Shown: positions 5,059 through 23,994 of the stretch, in pieces
How the letters are laid out: each line of letters starts with the position of its first letter
Numbering within the stretch: position 1 is the first letter of the stretch
IMG/VR virus record: IMGVR_UViG_3300010354_000619
Coordinates: 1-24,583 of that record
Reading direction: 5' to 3' (one strand)
DNA length: 24,583 bases
Source: a virus
The notes under the pieces: generated by a model
The model's database searches: none
Seen by the model: only the letters and a program-made list of their open reading frames with translations
Told to the model about the DNA's origin: nothing
Made by a program: the position numbers and the translations under genes

Positions 5059-5087
5059 ATTATATTATACATTTTGGAAGAAGTCAA
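5059..5087 (-). promoter_or_regulatory. Sigma70-type promoter for the lysin gene
   Basis: TTGACT (5082-5087) and TATAAT (5059-5064) on the minus strand are 17 bases apart. A second overlapping TATAAT lies five bases upstream. The -35 falls in the last codons of the preceding gene and the start point near 5052 would leave a leader of about 45 bases before the ATG at 5007. Confidence 0.75.
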
Positions 5088-5694
5088 GCGTCGTTGGCTC
5101 TTCTCCCTGCTTAGGTTGATATTGTATTATATGTTGTTCAATGTCTCGACCATCTAAAAATTGAAATCTTCTAGGTAAAATTGTTATACCTTCTTTAGAA
5201 TCTTTCCAAGTCTGATTAGCTTCATCCCAATATTCAAAAGGATATCCTGGGCTAGGAATAGGGGCTTCCCAAATACCTGTTTCAGTATTTTTTACCCAAC
5301 TATCAAATCCTTGTCTTGCATATTCGCCATTTACTTGGCCCCATGTGTTATTTTCATAATCCCAAATCCAATCTATTTGAGAAGGTGGGTCTATATCGTT
5401 AGGATTATTTTGATCTCTGGAGACCCAGTCAGCAATATTTAAATCTATAAGAAGATGTTTATACTTGGGGATAGGCATGAATATGTCGTGTTGTCTGTAA
5501 TATCTATAACCTACGCATGCAAAATTTCCACGAAACGGAGTACCCCCCAAAAGGTGCGTATTTCTATGTGTATTATAACTAGTTTGAATCCAGTTCGCAG
5601 GATCTCCCATTGCTCCAGAATCAATAAAATCTTGTTCTGCAACTATTACGTTGTGTACTATTCCTGCGCCGTCTATTCCAGCAAAATGTGCCAT
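5065..5694 (-). CDS. Probable virion-associated protein
   Basis: A 209-residue protein starting MAHFAGIDGAGIVHNVIVAEQDFID. It carries the NWIQTSYNT...FRGNFACVGYRY block (about 34-65) typical of proteins encoded near tail-fibre genes of marine T4-like phages, followed by several Trp-containing beta segments (WIWDYENNTW, GIWEAPIPSPGYP, YEYWDEANQTWKD-like repeats). No signal or membrane segment. A late-type AATAAATA box lies about 40 bases upstream and the SD is AAGGGGA, fitting late expression. It is probably a structural or tail-associated protein; the exact role is unknown. Confidence 0.65.
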   Translation of the reverse strand: MAHFAGIDGAGIVHNVIVAEQDFIDSGAMGDPANWIQTSYNTHRNTHLLGGTPFRGNFACVGYRYYRQHDIFMPIPKYKHLLIDLNIADWVSRDQNNPNDIDPPSQIDWIWDYENNTWGQVNGEYARQGFDSWVKNTETGIWEAPIPSPGYPFEYWDEANQTWKDSKEGITILPRRFQFLDGRDIEQHIIQYQPKQGEEPTTLDFFQNV

Positions 5695-5730: not shown

Positions 5731-5738
5731 TATTTATT
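5731..5738 (-). promoter_or_regulatory. T4-like late promoter box
   Basis: AATAAATA on the minus strand, in the context GATAATAAATATT, one base from the T4 late consensus TATAAATA. It lies just past the terminator at 5753-5776 and about 37 bases before the ATG at 5694, the right place to restart late transcription for that gene. Confidence 0.5.
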
Positions 5739-5752
5739 ATCTAGTAAACTAT

Positions 5753-5776
5753 AAAAAAAGGACCTTTCGGCCCTTT
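5753..5776 (-). terminator. Rho-independent terminator
   Basis: On the minus strand AAAGGGCC (5769-5776), a GAAA tetraloop and GGTCCTTT (5757-5764) form an 8-bp stem with one G-U pair, followed by a run of T. It separates the gene at 5839-6549 from the one at 5065-5694 and is the only clear intrinsic terminator in the window. Confidence 0.9.
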
Positions 5777-5822
5777 AGTACTGGTTACGAGTTCCAGCGG
5801 CACCCTATCGTTGTGCCCGGTT
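5753..5822 (-). ncRNA. Candidate small structured phage RNA
   Basis: Between a TATAAATA late promoter (5828-5835) and the terminator lies about 45 bases with no ORF but clear pairing: CGG-GCAC with GTGCCG around an AACGATAG-type loop (one bulged G), then CTGG...CCAG, then the terminator hairpin. A transcript of roughly 70 bases would be almost fully folded. It does not match a tRNA (no acceptor stem, no T-loop). It could also be only the structured 3' end of the upstream mRNA. Confidence 0.4.
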
Positions 5823-5827
5823 TATAT

Positions 5828-5835
5828 TATTTATA
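5828..5835 (-). promoter_or_regulatory. T4-like late promoter TATAAATA
   Basis: An exact match to the T4 late consensus TATAAATA on the minus strand, in the context GTATAAATAATATAAACC. It lies immediately after the stop codon of the gene at 5839-6549 and about 50 bases ahead of the terminator, so its only product would be the short RNA at 5753-5822 or a read-through transcript. Confidence 0.55.
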
Positions 5836-5838
5836 CAC

Positions 5839-6549
5839 TTATCCTAACTGAAACTTATAACTTCCGACCTGAAGGTTACCTGTTATCTTTGTATAACCTG
5901 AGACGTTTCCACCTAATAGAGTGGGAACACCTGCTGTAGGACCTGTAGGCCAACCTGCATGATATATTTCATTTAATACAGTTACTATTGCATTACCGTT
6001 ATTTACTATAGTATAGTTGTTTGCCGATCTTCTATAGTTTTTATAGTAAGGTCCACCTGTTTGACCTATTATGAAATAGCGATTTGCAGGTATAATAACT
6101 TGAGTTATAACATTGGCTTCTGATAATACATTTCCTACATAACCACCTTGTCCAAGGCCAACGCCACCTAATGCAGTCACCTTAACGTCTACGTTTGAAT
6201 TAAAATTGGATTTAGTATTATTTGATGACGATACCGCAAGCGAATATTGCCAAGAGTTGTTACCATTTTGTCTTACCATCGTACCAATACGATAAGGTGC
6301 CGCAGGCAATCTAACCTGTTGATGTGCATAGAAAATATACCAGACCATATTGTTAGTATCATTCTGATAATCATTGCCTTGTACTGTGGGTATGCCCAAG
6401 CCGGTGTGCATATAGGTATTAGAAGTCCATTCCTGTGTTACACCCAATGGTAGGGCAGGGTCCCCGCTGACATAACCAGTTGACGGGGTAGGTGATTCAA
6501 ACCTAATACTTCCTCCGGAGATTGTTATTGTACCGCCTGATATTTGCAT
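5839..6549 (-). CDS. Probable tail/fibre-associated virion protein
   Basis: A 236-residue protein beginning MQISGGTITISGGSIRF, a Gly/Ser/Thr-rich beta pattern common at the N-terminus of phage fibre-like and particle-decorating proteins. The rest is rich in Asn, Gly, Tyr and Val (ALGGVGLGQGGYVGNVLSEANVI; NGNAIVTVLNEIYHAGW), consistent with an all-beta virion or host-interaction protein. No signal peptide or membrane helix. It starts one base after the GIY-YIG-like gene and shares its late promoter. I do not recognise a specific family; the assignment rests on composition and on its late, terminator-bounded position. Confidence 0.55.
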   Translation of the reverse strand: MQISGGTITISGGSIRFESPTPSTGYVSGDPALPLGVTQEWTSNTYMHTGLGIPTVQGNDYQNDTNNMVWYIFYAHQQVRLPAAPYRIGTMVRQNGNNSWQYSLAVSSSNNTKSNFNSNVDVKVTALGGVGLGQGGYVGNVLSEANVITQVIIPANRYFIIGQTGGPYYKNYRRSANNYTIVNNGNAIVTVLNEIYHAGWPTGPTAGVPTLLGGNVSGYTKITGNLQVGSYKFQLG

Positions 6550-6964: not shown

Positions 6965-6973
6965 TATTTATTA
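6965..6973 (-). promoter_or_regulatory. T4-like late promoter box TAATAAATA
   Basis: Minus-strand CTAATAAATA overlaps the stop codon of the preceding gene and lies about 20 bases before the ATG at 6943. An identical CTAATAAATA occurs before the tail-fibre gene at 23981, which supports its being this phage's version of the T4 late box. Confidence 0.55.
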
Positions 6974-8358: not shown

Positions 8359-8542
8359 CCCACTTTCCTTCAGGACATCTTGTACTTTTTAGTTGCGTTT
8401 TTGCCCATATAGAGCAACCACAACTTTCACAGAATTTGGCACCTACAAAAGTTTTAAGATGTTCGCAACTATTGCAAATGTCACGACGTTCTTTAATAAA
8501 TTGTTCAACTATTATAGGTTTACCAAATATATTTGTGTTCAT
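8342..8542 (-). CDS. Small Cys-rich zinc-binding phage protein
   Basis: A 66-residue protein with the ordered cysteines CNSCEHLKTFVGAKFCESCGC...STRCPEGKW, a pattern (CxxCxxL...CxxCGCxxxxKxxL...CPxGKW) found in many phage genomes as a small zinc-binding domain (resembling DUF6171). It is coupled by ATGA to NrdB upstream. Function unknown; sitting between two dNTP-synthesis enzymes does not by itself indicate a role there. Confidence 0.75.
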   Translation of the reverse strand: MNTNIFGKPIIVEQFIKERRDICNSCEHLKTFVGAKFCESCGCSIWAKTQLKSTRCPEGKWDAQPN

Positions 8543-9528
8543 GCAGCCTTACCCCAAACATCATGCCAATCACCAGATAATGCACCTTTAGCATAATCCG
8601 TTGCTCTATTCTCAAAGAAGTTAGTATGTGTAGGCGCATTAATCATTTCTTCAACCCAGGGCAAAGGATTCTTTTTACGCTTAAAGATACCTTTAAGACC
8701 AAGACTAATTAAACGTCTATCAGCAATATAACGAATATACTCTTTGACTTCTTGTTCAGTTAAACCCTGGATAGCGCCAGTTTTGAAAGATAGTTCAATA
8801 AACTTATCTTCCAGATCAACCATTTTCTCCGCAATCGTGTAGATCTTCCCTTTAAGCTCATCATTCCATATCTCCTTATTTTCTTCGATATAAGTACGGA
8901 ATAATTTAATCATTGCCTCGGCGTGTTGTGTCTCATCTACAATAGACCAGGTAACAATTTGTCCCATACCTTTCATCTTGCCATGACGAGGAAAATTCAA
9001 TAGCATAATAAAAGATGAGAACAATTGCATGCCCTCGGTAAATGCTGAGAATACAGCAATGTGCGTAGCCGTAGATTCTATAGTACCATTCTTAGCAGAA
9101 AGATCTAGTACATAATCATGCTTATCCTTCATTTCTTGATATTCAAGAAATTGATTGTACATTGTCTCAGGTAAACCTAGTGTTTCAATTAGATGAGAAT
9201 ATGCTGCAATATGAAGAGCTTCTCTTGCAGCGAAACCTGCTAGCATCATGCGCACTTCAGGTTGAGGAAAATATGGAAGATAATTCTTAACATATCCTCC
9301 TGCTACATCAATGTCTCCTTGTGTGAAGAAACGAAAGATGTGAGTTAAGAATTGTTTTTCTTCACTGGTTAATTTCTTTTTCCAATCTTTTACATCTTCA
9401 AGCATTGGTACTTCAGTATGTAACCAATGAGATTGTTCATGCTTTAACCATGCGTCATATGCCCAAGGGTAATTAAAAGGTTTGAAAGAATTACGTTCAT
9501 CAGTTAAACGAGATTTCTTACTTACCAT
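8539..9528 (-). CDS. nrdB: Ribonucleotide reductase class I, small (radical) subunit
   Basis: A 329-residue protein of the NrdB ferritin-like fold. The metal ligands are in place: Asp72, Glu103 and His106 (EALH), Glu165 (FTEGMQ), Glu199 and His202 (DETQH). Tyr110, four residues after His106, matches the radical tyrosine of classical class Ia enzymes. It generates the radical needed by NrdA (12341-14158) to reduce ribonucleotides. SD is GAGGAG. The thioredoxin gene upstream overlaps by 11 bases, a functional pairing since thioredoxin supplies the electrons. The two reductase subunits are separated by six genes, including isocitrate lyase and the desaturase. Confidence 0.95.
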   Translation of the reverse strand: MVSKKSRLTDERNSFKPFNYPWAYDAWLKHEQSHWLHTEVPMLEDVKDWKKKLTSEEKQFLTHIFRFFTQGDIDVAGGYVKNYLPYFPQPEVRMMLAGFAAREALHIAAYSHLIETLGLPETMYNQFLEYQEMKDKHDYVLDLSAKNGTIESTATHIAVFSAFTEGMQLFSSFIMLLNFPRHGKMKGMGQIVTWSIVDETQHAEAMIKLFRTYIEENKEIWNDELKGKIYTIAEKMVDLEDKFIELSFKTGAIQGLTEQEVKEYIRYIADRRLISLGLKGIFKRKKNPLPWVEEMINAPTHTNFFENRATDYAKGALSGDWHDVWGKAA

Positions 9529-12340: not shown

Positions 12341-14158
12341 TTATCCTTCGCAAGCCAAACAAGTATCACCTTCGACCATAGCCTTCATATCTAATTCTTT
12401 AATGACTTCACGCTCAATACGCTTAGATACTTTATCTGCCTTACCAATCTTTTCAGAGCGGCAATAGTAAAGAGTTTTAAGTCCCTGCTTCCATGCCATA
12501 AAATGTACAGCATGCAAGTATTTTATATTTGAATCGGGTCTAAAGAATAGATTAACAGACTGAGCTTGATCTATATATTGCTGTCTATCTGCAGCATGTT
12601 GTATAACCCAGCGCTGATCTATTTCCATAGATGTTTTAAACACATCTTTATCCCAATCAGACAACCATTCAAGATGTTGTACCGAACCATCGTTAGCAAT
12701 AATAGAAGACCAAATTTGCTGATACTCTTCTTCACCTTTAGGTGTTAGTGCAGAGTCATTTGGATCTAGATATTTCATGATAACTCTATCAAGCCATTTG
12801 TTCTTATTCAACATCGAACCTGACAAAGTATCTTGTCTGTATGCATTAGCACGGAGAGGCTCAATAGAAGGGCTAGTATTGCCCATAATAATAGAGGAAG
12901 AAGCATTAGGAGCAATGGCTAACATATGACTAAACCTGCGGCCGGTGCCTTCGGCGTCAGGAGCCTCGCCTCTTTCCTTGCCTAGTTCAAGATTAGCTGC
13001 ATCTAAACCTGTTCTTATATGTTTAAATATCTGCGTATTTCTGCCAACTGCCATCGCAGATTCCCAAGGTATAGAATTGCGTTGTAGATAAGCATGCCAG
13101 CCGAGAGCACCAATGCCAATACTGCGCTCATGAGCAGCACTGAATTTTGCTCTAGCAATAGCGTTAGGAGCATTAAAAATAAAATAATCAAGCACGTTGT
13201 CAAGCATCTCAGCAACGTCTTTGAGGAAGATGGGATTGTCTTTCCAGTCATCATAGTATTCCAAATTCAAAGATGATAAGCAACATACAGCAGTACGATC
13301 CTTATCTGTGGGTAAAATAATTTCAGAACAGAGATTAGATTGCTTGATACTTAGACCAAGTTTCTTTTGAAACTCTGGCATTTGTCTATTACTTGTATCA
13401 ATAAAATGCAGATATGGTTCGCCTGTTTGCATACGCATTTCAATAATACGTTGCCACAATTCTCTGGCTGATATAGTATCTCTTACTTCACCTGAATGAG
13501 GATCTTTTAATTCCCAAGTATCATCTGCATCTTTATCAAGCATACAACGCTCGATCAATAGCATAAAGTCATCAGTGATATTAATACCATGATGTAAGTT
13601 GAGAGTCCTCATATTAGGATCTCCCGTTGGTTTTCTCATCTCGAGAAATAATAAAATATCGGGATGAGAAATGTCCAGATAAGCAGCATAACTACCCCGA
13701 CGAGTGCTACCTTGTCGGTACGCCAGAGAGGATGCATCGTAAGTCCGTAAATGAGGCATAATGCCAACAGACTTATCATCAGCAGAACGAATACCAATAC
13801 CAATTCCAACTCCTCCGCCCAGCATGCTGAGCCAATTTACCTCTGCGAGAGTATTAACCAAACCTTCTGCACTATCGTCGAGATAAGGTAGAAAGCAAGA
13901 AATAGGTAAGCCCCGCTTGCTACGACCAAAACTAAGAATAGGTGTAGAATAGCTGAGCCAATGTTTCGAAGAATACTCATACAAACGTTGGGCGTGTTCA
14001 GGGTTGGACCCAAATCGTGAAGAAACGAATGCAAATCTCTCTTGTGGTGATGTCTCATCTTCCCTCATGTAACTTTCTTTTAATCTTTTAATACCTAAGT
14101 CGTCGAACAAACTATCTCTAGAATAATCGACATTAATCCCATGGACTACACTTTCCAT
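12341..14158 (-). CDS. nrdA: Ribonucleotide reductase class I, large (catalytic) subunit
   Basis: A 605-residue protein. The active-site redox pair is Cys88 (PISCFLP) and Cys292 or Cys293 ([10 protein letters not shown]); NLCSE (275-279) gives the thiyl-radical Cys277 with Asn275 and Glu279; [17 protein letters not shown] is the phosphate-binding part. The C-terminal CLACEG carries the CxxC pair reduced by thioredoxin. The protein begins where the ATP-cone of E. coli NrdA would end, so the allosteric activity domain is absent and the enzyme should escape dATP shut-off. SD is TTGGAG. The stop lies three bases before the isocitrate lyase ATG. Confidence 0.95.
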
Positions 14159-14878: not shown

Positions 14879-14900
14879 TAATACTCCTATTAGAGTATTA
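14879..14900 (-). promoter_or_regulatory. Hairpin covering the SD of the spanin gene
   Basis: A perfect 8-bp inverted repeat on the minus strand, TAATACTC (14893-14900) and GAGTATTA (14879-14886), with a 6-base loop, TAATAG. The SD AGGAG overlaps the loop and the right arm, two bases before the ATG side of the stem ends. The left arm contains the stop codon of thyX, so a ribosome ending thyX would open the hairpin. There is no T-run, so it is not a terminator. Confidence 0.6.
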
Positions 14901-15572
14901 TATATCTTTTACTAATTCTGCAGACATAGGAAAAACCGTCGCAATAACGCTAGCGCATGCTTTTGCTATTTCAATGTGTTCTTTTTGTGTGCCGTTTGCT
15001 GCTCTTAATTGAATATAGTGTATCCAACTACGCAAAGTTCCCGCCATATACAGTCTCGAAATAGTATTTCCCTCGGGTAAAATTGCTCTAGCTTGTTCTT
15101 TTGCAATTCCGTTAGATACAGCCCAAGTATATGCTTCTTTTACCTGTTTAATAATATCTTGCTGTTTTTCTTCCCAGATACGAGATAGAAGCCTCTGCTC
15201 AGGATCAGACATATCTAACTCAATAGAATTTTGTCTGTTTTTAGTATCCTGTAATCTTGCTTCTCTTGTAGTAAAATCTAATTCTTGTGTTGGGTCGGCA
15301 TAACGCTGGCTAAACTCTTGAAATGAGAATGAGCGATGGCGAAGCATCTGGCGTGCAATATCTCTAGTAGTCTCAATCTCAAGAGTCAAATGCACCATCT
15401 CAAGGGGAGACCAATGCATGTTCTTAATTAGATATTTAATTAATTTCTCAGATGTTTCCATGTTCATCTGATTTGAAGGATTGGATACTCGTGCACAAAA
15501 TGCTACAAGCTCTGTCATGTCCTCGACAAAAGGTTGTGCCGGTTGTGAATATGCAATAATTTCTACTTTCAT
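14898..15572 (-). CDS. thyX: FAD-dependent thymidylate synthase
   Basis: A 224-residue ThyX. The signature RHR-x7-S is RHRSFSFQEFS (78-88), followed by QRYADP; SNQMNMETSEKLIKYLIKNMHWSPLEMVH shows the conserved His/Ser region, and ILPEGNTISRLYMAGTLRSWIHYIQLR is the C-terminal nucleotide/FAD-binding part. It methylates dUMP to dTMP with methylene-tetrahydrofolate and NADPH. With dCMP deaminase and the reductase it completes a phage dTTP route. The ATG at 15570-15572, just after the upstream stop, is preferred over one eleven codons earlier. Its stop lies in the spanin SD hairpin. Confidence 0.95.
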   Translation of the reverse strand: MKVEIIAYSQPAQPFVEDMTELVAFCARVSNPSNQMNMETSEKLIKYLIKNMHWSPLEMVHLTLEIETTRDIARQMLRHRSFSFQEFSQRYADPTQELDFTTREARLQDTKNRQNSIELDMSDPEQRLLSRIWEEKQQDIIKQVKEAYTWAVSNGIAKEQARAILPEGNTISRLYMAGTLRSWIHYIQLRAANGTQKEHIEIAKACASVIATVFPMSAELVKDI

Positions 15573-15573
15573 T

Positions 15574-16245
15574 TTAATCCCATAGTGTTTGATAATATTT
15601 GCCAAATAGTCTACATCCGTTTTGAATTCTTTCTTGATGTTTTCTTAAACCTTCCCAATCGCATACGCCTTCTTTCTTCCAGCGTAGCGGAACAGTTTCC
15701 TTACCTTCATCTTCGGGATACTCTTCAAGATCAATTTCTGGTCTTTCCTTCCAGAATTGTTCCTCGTTGTTGTCATCATTCAATTGCTCAAATGCCCAGA
15801 TCATTTCATCAAGTACCCAATCATATCTCGCATGAATATCTCCGCCTGAAGGAACATTCTCTTCGTAAAAGTCAAATGTTTGTTGTGCATCATAATCTTC
15901 AGTAGTAGTTGTACGAAGATATTCGGGTACGTCTTCCATATCAATAAAACCAGAACCATGTTTGGTTGCCTTTAATTGCTTCAGCATTGGAAGAATAATA
16001 GGTGATAAAGTAGAATCCATTGACCAAGTATCCCAATAGTCAATCTTCACATAATTAACCTTAGGGTGAATAAAGTCTAAAACTTTTCTCAATGCTTCAC
16101 AAAAAGGCTGCAGACGTTCTGCCCATGTATTGACCCATGGCTTTTTGTAGTCAATATAATCTGAATCTTTCCAGAAAAATACTTTTTCCAAAATAGTATA
16201 AGGTGATAACCAATGGTCACGATACTTGCTAATATAAACTTTCAT
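15574..16245 (-). CDS. Conserved phage protein of unknown function (223 aa)
   Basis: A soluble protein with strongly conserved blocks that I recognise from many myoviruses: VKIDYWDTWSMDSTLSPIILPMLKQLKATKHGS (about 66-98), then DVPEYLR, then RYDWVLDEMIWAFEQ (about 140-154) and NGCRLFGKYYQTLWD at the C-terminus. It is rich in Trp, Asp and Glu and has no membrane segment. Wide conservation beside DNA-metabolism genes suggests a core phage function, but none is established. ATGA-coupled to the tryptophan halogenase upstream and two bases from thyX downstream. Confidence 0.8.
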   Translation of the reverse strand: MKVYISKYRDHWLSPYTILEKVFFWKDSDYIDYKKPWVNTWAERLQPFCEALRKVLDFIHPKVNYVKIDYWDTWSMDSTLSPIILPMLKQLKATKHGSGFIDMEDVPEYLRTTTTEDYDAQQTFDFYEENVPSGGDIHARYDWVLDEMIWAFEQLNDDNNEEQFWKERPEIDLEEYPEDEGKETVPLRWKKEGVCDWEGLRKHQERIQNGCRLFGKYYQTLWD

Positions 16246-17717
16246 GTTCTAACCTTTGCATTCTCTAAAAAATATCTATGATTGTGTGCTTCGTGTATTA
16301 ATAAGTGTTCTATTGCATTTTTATATTGTTCAATCGAAGGATAAACCGTATCTAGATTTGTTACTCTTGGAGGTGATTCTAATATTCCCAAACCCACACC
16401 TACTTGCAACCAACTAGAAGATTCAAAATAAACTGCAGAATTTTTATCTATGTTAAAGGTTCGTAAATTACCTTCTTTTAGAAATTCTAATTTTTCTTGT
16501 AGTGTGGGCGGAATGGGGTTTTTATCTTTAAACTCTTGCCAGAATTTAGAATCATTTCTTTTAGTTATGTAATGAAGATATACGAGATCAGATATCTCAT
16601 CAAATCCTTTTGCACATTGTTTATTATATAATTTAACACTATTATCTCTGGGATTATCTAGATCATCATAATAATTAAGTAATATCTGCAATTGACCAAT
16701 TGTAGCAAAAAGAGAAGTTGATTCTAGAGGCTCAATAAAACTTGATGACAATCCAAATGCTATACAATTTTTGACCCAATGATTTTCGTATCTACCCGGA
16801 TCAAAAGGTATAAATTTTCTTGGTTCAAGTTTTCTACCGTAGTGTTTTTCCGCCTCAGCTAGAGCCTCATCATCTGAAATATAATCAGAGTCAAATACAT
16901 AACCTGCCCCAATTCTATTCTGCAAGGGTATGTTCCATGTCCAACCATATTTTAATGCAGTGCAAGAAGTGTAAGGTTTTATAATTTCCTCAGATTCTAG
17001 CCAAAAGGGAATGCCCTTTTTCATTGGCAAATATTTAGAATGAGAAATCCATTTTTGTTTATATAATCCGCCTATTATTAATCTAGCAAATCCGGAGCAA
17101 TCAAAAACAAAATCACACTCTACTTCTCTACCATCGTCTAAATAAATTTTTCTTACAAATCCTTTTTCATCTTGAGAAAAATTATTAATTGTTCCTTCAA
17201 TTTCTTGAACACCTCTAGATACTGCGATTTCATTTAAGTGTTTCCCAACTAGAACTGCATCAAATTGTAAAGAATAAGAAGTTCTATTAACGTCCACTTT
17301 ATTAGTATATGCAAGTCTATGTTGGTACATATAATCCCCCAAATTCAAATTCTTAGATACAACTAAACGCTGAAAATGAAAGGAAGAATCTTTACTAAAA
17401 ATCGGGGGCACTGCAAAATCTGAGACATAGTCGCCAAACGAGTGAAAATATCTTTTGCCGTCCCCGTTCCAATTTTCAAAACTAATACCGTTCTTAATTG
17501 AGCCTTTAGTTGCATTTACTAAATCTGTAGGTTTAATACCTAAGTATTCTAGAGCCAGAACAAAATTAGGCGTGGTAGATTCACCAACACCAATAATACC
17601 TAATTCTTTACTTTGTATTAAAGTAATATCATAGTTAGGTAGTGTTTTCTTTACCCATAATGCGGCTAACCAACCTGCAGTTCCGCCTCCCACAATAACT
17701 AATTTTTTCTTTAACAT
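16242..17717 (-). CDS. Flavin-dependent tryptophan halogenase-like enzyme
   Basis: A 491-residue PrnA-type enzyme. GGGTAGW (10-16) is the FAD-binding motif, GIIGVGESTTPN the following flavin contact, Lys75 (in GSIKNGISFENW) aligns with the catalytic Lys79 of PrnA, WTWNIP (259-264) is the WxWxIP halogenase motif, and EPLESTS supplies Glu332/Ser333 matching Glu346/Ser347. All key residues are kept, so it should form HOCl or HOBr and halogenate a substrate, perhaps tryptophan or an indole/pyrrole compound. It needs FADH2 from a host flavin reductase. The ATG at 17715-17717 is preferred to a GTG three codons earlier. A perfect promoter lies upstream inside the primase gene. Confidence 0.9.
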   Translation of the reverse strand: MLKKKLVIVGGGTAGWLAALWVKKTLPNYDITLIQSKELGIIGVGESTTPNFVLALEYLGIKPTDLVNATKGSIKNGISFENWNGDGKRYFHSFGDYVSDFAVPPIFSKDSSFHFQRLVVSKNLNLGDYMYQHRLAYTNKVDVNRTSYSLQFDAVLVGKHLNEIAVSRGVQEIEGTINNFSQDEKGFVRKIYLDDGREVECDFVFDCSGFARLIIGGLYKQKWISHSKYLPMKKGIPFWLESEEIIKPYTSCTALKYGWTWNIPLQNRIGAGYVFDSDYISDDEALAEAEKHYGRKLEPRKFIPFDPGRYENHWVKNCIAFGLSSSFIEPLESTSLFATIGQLQILLNYYDDLDNPRDNSVKLYNKQCAKGFDEISDLVYLHYITKRNDSKFWQEFKDKNPIPPTLQEKLEFLKEGNLRTFNIDKNSAVYFESSSWLQVGVGLGILESPPRVTNLDTVYPSIEQYKNAIEHLLIHEAHNHRYFLENAKVRT

Positions 17718-18733
17718 CTTTTCCACTCTACAAATTTCATTTTAGCCTGCAACCCTGAGAATGTATTTTTACTAATAATTTTGACAGGATCAATACCAGA
17801 CAAAACCATATCATTAATATCTTTTGCTTCTATAGTTTGTGGCCAGATAACCACATTATAATTTCGATCTATAATTTTGTCAATTATTTTACAAACTTCT
17901 TTGTTTCTCGGTTGATTATCCAAAGCAACAATTAGTTTATCTTTTGGCAACGATAAGGTTTCAAGCTTACCGAAGGTTGTGCCGCCAACTGCTATAGCAT
18001 TAGGTAAAAATAGGCTGTCGATAGGCCCTTCAACCACATATATTGGCTTATCTTTATTTATTTCACCTAGACCAAAAACTTGTAAATCTTCTTCCTTAAC
18101 CTTGATAACAAGATAACGAAGTGATTCTCCTCTAAGTGCTCTACAAGTAACGCCTGCTAATTGACCATCATTATTGAAATAAGGAATGACCAATCTTGGT
18201 TCATCGGTTGTAATCTTATTTGCATATGAAGGGCTTAGCTGTACAATGTCTTTTATATTTTTTATAAAGTATAGACGATTAAATTTTTCTCTTGGGATTT
18301 TTCGTTTCAAGCAAAACTGCACTGCCTCATTATCTTCGGGCAAAGTATCAAGCCTGTCTAATAGTTTATCTATCAATCTCTCCTCGGATTTTTCAAACAC
18401 CGGCTCTTCCATTTTAAACTTATCCTCAATCTTTTGATGAGGTTGGTTCTTTGGCATTCCTTCGTTATATCTTTCTAGAACGTATTGATTATATAGGTTA
18501 TTATCCAATTGTTTTAAGAATGTGCCAAAATGGCAAGATACACTGCAGTTATGACACTTGTAAACCAAATTATTTTTAGATGGATAGAAATATCCACGTG
18601 CCTTATTCTTTTTAGAATTTGAATCTCCGCAGATAGTACATCTACAGTTGTAGAGTCGTTCGCTCTTTTGTTTGAACAAAGGCAAACGATTACTAATTAA
18701 TCGAAGATATTTTAGATCAGTGAATAATGACAA
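17711..18733 (-). CDS. 61: DNA primase, T4 gp61-like, TTG start
   Basis: A 340-residue protein, close to the 342 of T4 gp61. The N-terminal zinc ribbon has CRCTICGDS (30-38) and CHNCSVSC (60-67) with NKARGYFY between them, as in gp61. The catalytic TOPRIM part starts around IYVVEGPIDSLFLPNAIAVGG (about 231-251; Glu and Asp metal ligands) and continues with LIVALDNQPRN. It makes RNA primers for lagging-strand synthesis with the phage helicase, which is not in this window. The start is TTG at 18731-18733, with AGGAG six bases upstream inside a hairpin and a sigma70-type promoter before it. Confidence 0.9.
   Translation of the reverse strand: MSLFTDLKYLRLISNRLPLFKQKSERLYNCRCTICGDSNSKKNKARGYFYPSKNNLVYKCHNCSVSCHFGTFLKQLDNNLYNQYVLERYNEGMPKNQPHQKIEDKFKMEEPVFEKSEERLIDKLLDRLDTLPEDNEAVQFCLKRKIPREKFNRLYFIKNIKDIVQLSPSYANKITTDEPRLVIPYFNNDGQLAGVTCRALRGESLRYLVIKVKEEDLQVFGLGEINKDKPIYVVEGPIDSLFLPNAIAVGGTTFGKLETLSLPKDKLIVALDNQPRNKEVCKIIDKIIDRNYNVVIWPQTIEAKDINDMVLSGIDPVKIISKNTFSGLQAKMKFVEWKRC
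17855..17883 (-). promoter_or_regulatory. Perfect consensus sigma70 promoter inside the primase gene
   Basis: TTGACA (17878-17883) and TATAAT (17855-17860) on the minus strand with exactly 17 bases between, matching the bacterial consensus at all 12 positions. It encodes part of IIDKIIDRNYNVV in the primase. The start point near 17848 lies about 130 bases before the halogenase ATG at 17717, so it could express the halogenase and following genes on their own. Confidence 0.65.
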
Positions 18734-23986: not shown

Positions 23987-23994
23987 TATTTATT
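23987..23994 (-). promoter_or_regulatory. T4-like late promoter box before the tail fibre
   Basis: AATAAATA on the minus strand in the context CTAATAAATAAG, the same CTAATAAATA as at 6965-6974. It lies only five bases before the ATG at 23981, so a transcript from it would have almost no leader. Confidence 0.45.

Follow-up and report, generated by a model that had tools for sequence, protein, structure and literature searches.

In the 24,583-nt stretch of viral DNA analysed here (the window, positions 1 to 24,583 of IMG/VR record IMGVR_UViG_3300010354_000619), a T4-late-like promoter box stands between a stop codon and an intrinsic terminator. The initial annotation had proposed that the stretch yields a compact non-coding RNA, equipped with a promoter and a terminator of its own, and this proposal is now strongly supported by a covarying core, the terminator and the offset of the box. 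Judged by its sequence, the window encodes a folded RNA of a previously uncatalogued family, which is found in many uncultured T4-like phages.

Layout of the locus

The features of the locus, all on the minus strand, were as follows.

5839-6549, minus: upstream ORF of 236 aa, without a family match, ending with a TAA stop codon (5841-5839)
5828-5835, minus: promoter box TATAAATA, exact match, T4-late-like, 5 bases 5' of the RNA start
5753-5822, minus: predicted small RNA of about 70 nt (5' AACCG to the T-run), start and end predicted
5799-5817, minus: hairpin 1, GGCAC-loop-GTGCC (5817-5813 paired with 5803-5799), 5 of 5 pairs covarying in relatives
5780-5798, minus: hairpin 2, GCTGG-AACTCGTAA-CCAGT (5798-5794 paired with 5784-5780), stem covarying in 4 of 5 pairs, loop near-invariant
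5757-5776, minus: intrinsic terminator hairpin AAAGGGCC-GAAA-GGTCCTTT, then TTTT at 5756-5753
5731-5737, minus: second ATAAATA, with the start of ORF 5065-5694 lying 43 bases downstream, candidate late promoter
5065-5694, minus: downstream ORF of 209 aa, PHROG 7759 (unknown function)
6965-6971 and 23987-23993, minus: further ATAAATA boxes, candidate late promoters (the three ATAAATA boxes listed lie 12-43 nt upstream of gene starts)

An exact late-type box after the stop codon and a strong terminator downstream of it had been claimed, and both were found. The stop codon of the upstream ORF is followed by 3 bases and then by TATAAATA (5835-5828), the AACCG 5' end of the RNA lies at 5822 between the box and hairpin 1, and the terminator (5776-5757), a GC-rich hairpin with a T-run, ranked first of 15 sites in the 20 kb scanned. 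The box is present as a single copy in the 24.6-kb window, but dinucleotide shuffles yielded 4.2 copies per window, so the box by itself is not significant. The three-hairpin fold of the RNA had an energy of -24.4 kcal/mol (z about -2.3), which was moderately better than shuffles. What raises the window RNA above chance is the covarying core in more than 100 contigs, together with the adjacent terminator and the fixed offset of TATAAATA.

With its composition as the sole basis, the upstream ORF is probably an adhesin or structural protein. Relatives of the PHROG 7759 ORF on other contigs did not have the RNA nearby. The same-strand run that holds the RNA also includes a tryptophan halogenase (16242-17726), ThyX (14898-15605) and both ribonucleotide reductase subunits (12341-14158 and 8539-9528).

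A two-hairpin RNA family with covarying stems

A degenerate two-hairpin pattern matched a near-identical relative of the window (L003/L084) and an unrelated contig (L002), in which the core differed by one base and stood in another gene context without a terminator. The two-hairpin core was found in well over 100 IMG/VR contigs, and at least 111 occurrences with distinct flanks were collected; this sample was gathered by sequence patterns, and de-duplication removed close IMG/VR relatives from several samples only partly. The pattern of stem 2 alone matched at least 119 IMG/VR stretches, nearly all of which had the whole element. We defined the new family (models R1 and R2) by a 5' AAYCG, a covarying stem 1 and a covarying stem 2 with the loop AACUCGUAA, all of which are present in the window. 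Positions 5780-5822 matched R1 with 65.6 bits (E 1e-19), and because the window itself is among the sequences of the model, the independent support is the match to 70-odd other sequences.

The two further stems that had been claimed were confirmed, with compensatory changes across relatives. Stem 1 occurred as CCAC/GTGG, CCGC/GCGG, CCTC/GAGG, GCAC/GTGC, GTAC/GTAC and others, and stem 2 also covaried when the search left it free (CCAG/CTGG, CCGG/CCGG and TTGG/CCAA), one variant being fully swapped. Among 90 aligned sequences, two-sided changes were found in 9 of 10 pairs, with 129 cells compared with 40.6 in shuffles, and the covariation score was 0.415 compared with 0.168 in shuffles, falling to 0.12 or less once the partner was slid. 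The alignment behind these values was fitted to the structure; the MAFFT alignment A2 gave the same picture. A double-stranded DNA site for packaging, recombination or integration would likewise be expected to have inverted repeats and to be mostly single-copy, but stem 2 often has a G-U pair at its base (22 of 90 sequences), which can form only in the RNA of this strand, so an RNA is favoured over a DNA palindrome. With a promoter at the 5' edge and a terminator at the 3' edge as well, a DNA site is scarcely credible.

Loop 2, AACUCGUAA, was near-invariant across copies. Most of the sample was gathered by pattern scans that contained CTCGTAA, and the check on the constancy of loop 2 is therefore the loop-1 scan; even in that scan, made without loop 2, CTCGTAA (CUCGUAA in the RNA) was present in every true copy. 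A kissing interaction between loop 1 (ACGA) and loop 2 (UCGU) was rejected because loop 1 varies freely and loop 2 is constant, and a pseudoknot between the 5' AUCG and CGAU of loop 1 was rejected because AUCG changes to ACCG without a matching change. The claim that the stretch holds no ORF was borne out: no conserved reading frame was found in the RNA, no frame keeps its start codon across the copies, and a short-peptide gene was rejected for this reason.

For the terminator and ALTERNATIVES, an intrinsic terminator was found in 85 of 110 copies, and 80 of these begin 0-5 nt past stem 2, compared with 2% in shuffles. The sequence of the terminator varied among copies. Conservation of the terminator without the stems would have spoken against the RNA, and the opposite was found, with stems and loops conserved and the terminator sequence variable.

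A divergent subgroup (L099, L102, L109, L131, L129, L149 and L166) scored 39-41 bits, with GATGT/ACATC as stem 1 and a 5' AAGCG, on contigs of up to 166 kb. Weak matches in L060, L082, L324 and L330 were judged to be due to chance.

Distribution and hosts

Carrier contigs were up to 364 kb long, and the T4-type major capsid family Gp23 was detected in 8 of the 17 tested. The element was present in 18 of 18 carrier contigs that were searched whole, once in each except for a weak second match in one. L203 carries two strong copies 2 kb apart (926-968 and 2914-2955), one behind PstS with a terminator and the other before a 682-aa gene without one.

No Rfam 15 family matched at the gathering threshold, and a relaxed search gave only matches far below the gathering score. 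No full-length copy was detected by blastn among the isolate phages in INPHARED, and the R1 model found none in T4, P-SSM2, syn9, HTVC008M, Melnitz-1 or Mosig and only noise in S-SRM01. Since neither Rfam nor the isolate genomes searched contain the family, standard annotation overlooks it. A bacterial origin was rejected: 10 GTDB contigs share a 17-mer but do not have the rest of the element, and among 369 gammaproteobacterial genomes the sole match turned out to be one of these 17-mers, present by chance. In 80 virus loci that had been fetched for a different purpose, the RNA model matched only weakly and by chance. The literature covered, which lies mostly outside subscription journals, held nothing matching.

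Permuted (two-piece) tmRNA genes were observed near the RNA in L128 (4159-4506, minus) and L098 (4319-4679, minus). The one in L128 matches the betaproteobacterial tmRNA model, which hints at betaproteobacterial hosts for some carriers.

Predicted promoters of the RNA

The exact TATAAATA was found in 5 of the 111 copies, always at -13 from AAYCG, which is the offset in the window; one of the five is L084, the near-identical relative. TAAATA occurred 21 times at -11 or -10 from AAYCG. The Pho-box score was based on a pair of TGTMAY half-sites with a spacing of 11 bp, located upstream of a -10-like box. Copies with the TAAATA box had half-sites at -39 and -28, and 18 of 24 scored at least 10/12 (mostly with the site at -39/-38), compared with 2.8% in shuffles. 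Half-sites were mostly missing from the copies that have no such box (at least 10/12 in 4 of 82). In relatives, the stand-alone copies have a Pho box that is separated by 11 bp from the TAAATA core downstream and is predicted to bind PhoB, and about 15 copies have a Pho-box promoter of their own with its predicted start at the 5' edge of the RNA.

The phage pstS promoters have the same layout of Pho box, 11 bp and TAAATA, and a Pho box of at least 11/12 was found within 150 nt of 45 of 49 pstS and 37 of 48 PlcP-like genes (background 1.8%). The combination at pstS was seen in L128, L123, L132, L270 and other carrier loci. In the carrier loci TATAAATA was 13.9-fold enriched upstream of long ORFs, and it precedes gp23 in L311, so the box resembles the late core of these phages. 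The promoter of pstS and of the RNA is possibly a hybrid that joins control by the host's PhoB to late transcription by the phage. Because the box in relatives is the -10-like core of a promoter with a Pho box, expression of the RNA there is predicted to follow phosphate starvation of the host.

The window copy keeps the box, the offset, the RNA and the terminator, and no Pho box was recognisable there, the best score being 8/12 and off the expected position (measured in L084, which has the same upstream sequence). ATAAATA occurs five times on the minus strand of the window and not on the plus strand, and four of the five are followed within 50 nt by a gene or by the RNA (binomial P about 1.4e-4, or 1.5e-3 without the RNA's own box). 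The T4 late promoter proposed at first is therefore plausible for the window copy, which has no Pho box and shares its window with ATAAATA before three other genes, but this part of the proposal is only partly right, as in the relatives the box belongs to a Pho-box promoter. The window RNA is probably a late transcript, since the ORF that precedes it is not a phosphate gene and, of the two promoter elements, only the TATAAATA box is present.

Phosphate genes beside the RNA

Phages carry phosphate-uptake genes that are switched on by host PhoB. At least one of PstS, PlcP-like and Porin_O_P was present within the fetched DNA of 88 of 109 carrier loci and 0 of 80 control loci, the control loci being shorter in total (0.43 compared with 0.98 Mb) and not matched for phage type. 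The commonest upstream neighbour of the RNA was phage PstS (NCBIfam equivalog, E 2e-120). Other neighbours were Pfam Porin_O_P, a family of phosphate-selective porins, and a calcineurin-like phosphoesterase with similarity to UDP-2,3-diacylglucosamine diphosphatase, which we read as PlcP-like, that is, as a putative enzyme of lipid remodelling at low phosphate. In the 24.6-kb window itself no phosphate-uptake gene was recognised.

Phage-borne Porin_O_P genes stand upstream of the RNA in L117, L154 and L160 (E 1e-39 to 9e-48 for the two scanned). A BPL_N/GATase-like protein of about 220 aa (MKPTIALFLHDPKCSVQS...), of unknown function, was encoded near the RNA in 44 of 109 loci, its gene lying downstream in L192, L184, L160 and others. 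The RNA copies of L101, L122 and L142 lie beside structural-looking genes.

Possible function of the RNA

The arrangement of promoters and neighbours suggests that the phages would make a regulatory RNA when the host is short of phosphate. We consider it probable that the element is a trans-acting phage sRNA of about 70 nt, with two conserved hairpins and a terminator, which in most relatives would be controlled by PhoB. In these relatives host PhoB, bound to the Pho box beside the late-type TAAATA core, would drive the RNA from its own promoter in the phosphate-starved host; alternatively, the RNA may be the 3' end of the phage pstS mRNA, released by processing. It would most likely act in trans through the exposed loop AACUCGUAA, aided by loop 1 and by the AAYCG at its 5' end, on a candidate partner that may be a conserved mRNA or a protein, and the phage would thereby exploit or reset the starved cell. 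Against this reading stand the window copy, at which neither a Pho box nor, within 24.6 kb, a phosphate-uptake gene was recognised, and the negative search for an antisense target.

Of the 94 copies in which an upstream gene ends no more than 60 nt away, 42 stand immediately behind PstS, and the RNA often begins at the stop codon. This would also be expected of a cis-acting 3'-UTR element, its hairpins serving only to shield or mature the 3' terminus of the mRNA from pstS or from another upstream gene. Such a cis-acting role is unlikely. In the roughly 15 copies with their own Pho-box promoter nothing else would be in the transcript, because the predicted start is at the 5' edge of the RNA, and the genes that precede the RNA are of many kinds. 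A general-purpose mRNA stabiliser should recur many times within a genome, but a single copy was the usual finding, and such a stabiliser would not require a near-invariant loop.

Copies without a terminator often lie 7-20 nt before a PlcP-like start codon, which also suits a role in cis and counts against a trans-acting sRNA. Such copies, and the position of the conserved domain directly 5' of the terminator in others, would fit an attenuator or riboswitch in which the two hairpins are a sensor controlling the adjacent terminator or the translation of the PlcP-like gene downstream. But the terminators are variable, and by eye no obvious shared alternative pairing to the core was seen. The downstream genes are not constant, and in 23 of 107 copies the gene that follows is encoded on the other strand, so the RNA needs no downstream gene and attenuation is unlikely as a general function. 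We give this explanation a very low probability.

Simple tests for antisense action were negative: complements of the loops were not clearly enriched in the translation starts of phage loci, and none was present in the one 16S rRNA locus tested. We take the loop CUCGUAA to resemble the anticodon loop of tRNA-Thr, but mimicry of the latter was rejected because the loop geometry differs. The missing antisense target favours a protein-binding decoy, in which the invariant loop would capture a host or phage RNA-binding protein without pairing to mRNA. Protein-binding hairpins typically combine an invariant loop with a covarying stem, and the 9-nt loop here is of this kind; a decoy would not usually have just one binding hairpin in each RNA, however, and no candidate protein was found, so that we think a decoy quite unlikely.

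With the trans-acting sRNA as the preferred reading, a wider picture can be drawn, which we hold to be possible but somewhat short of probable. T4-like phages of aquatic bacteria may have a dedicated regulatory RNA in the host Pho regulon, driven by a hybrid PhoB-box/late-core promoter and travelling with the genes for pstS, the phosphate porin and the membrane-lipid phosphoesterase, and the starved cell would then be rewired by RNA as well as by auxiliary enzymes.

Significance and comparison with known systems

If a conserved regulatory RNA does belong to the phosphate module, phage control of the starved cell would extend to the post-transcriptional level. The promoter layout of Pho box and late core that pstS and the RNA have in common raises the question of how host PhoB works with a phage-modified RNA polymerase. 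Expression studies and target searches are direct, since the family is widespread and compact, is mostly present as one copy, and comes with a promoter, a termination signal and a near-invariant loop.

Phage pstS can be under host PhoBR in cyanophages, and the pstS of P-SSM2 and the Pho-box genes of S-PM2d are likewise phage genes read by host PhoB under phosphate starvation (PMC10976474). The cyanophage Pho-box genes are protein genes, whereas here a Pho-box promoter is also predicted to drive a non-coding RNA. The T4-like late promoter has the box sequence TATAAATA in common with the box of the RNA, but in the relatives the latter is coupled to a Pho box located 11 bp before it. The marine-phage RNAs in Rfam (wcaG, manA, glnA riboswitch, PhotoRC and tmRNA) are also phage-borne and structured and have links to nutrient or metabolic genes, but the element matches none of them at the gathering score and none meaningfully at the relaxed threshold. 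Bacterial sRNAs, either derived from 3'-UTRs or stand-alone, are alike in size, in the U-run terminator and in both locations, behind an own promoter or at the 3' end of an mRNA; the element differs in that it was found only in phages, with no related bacterial sRNA.
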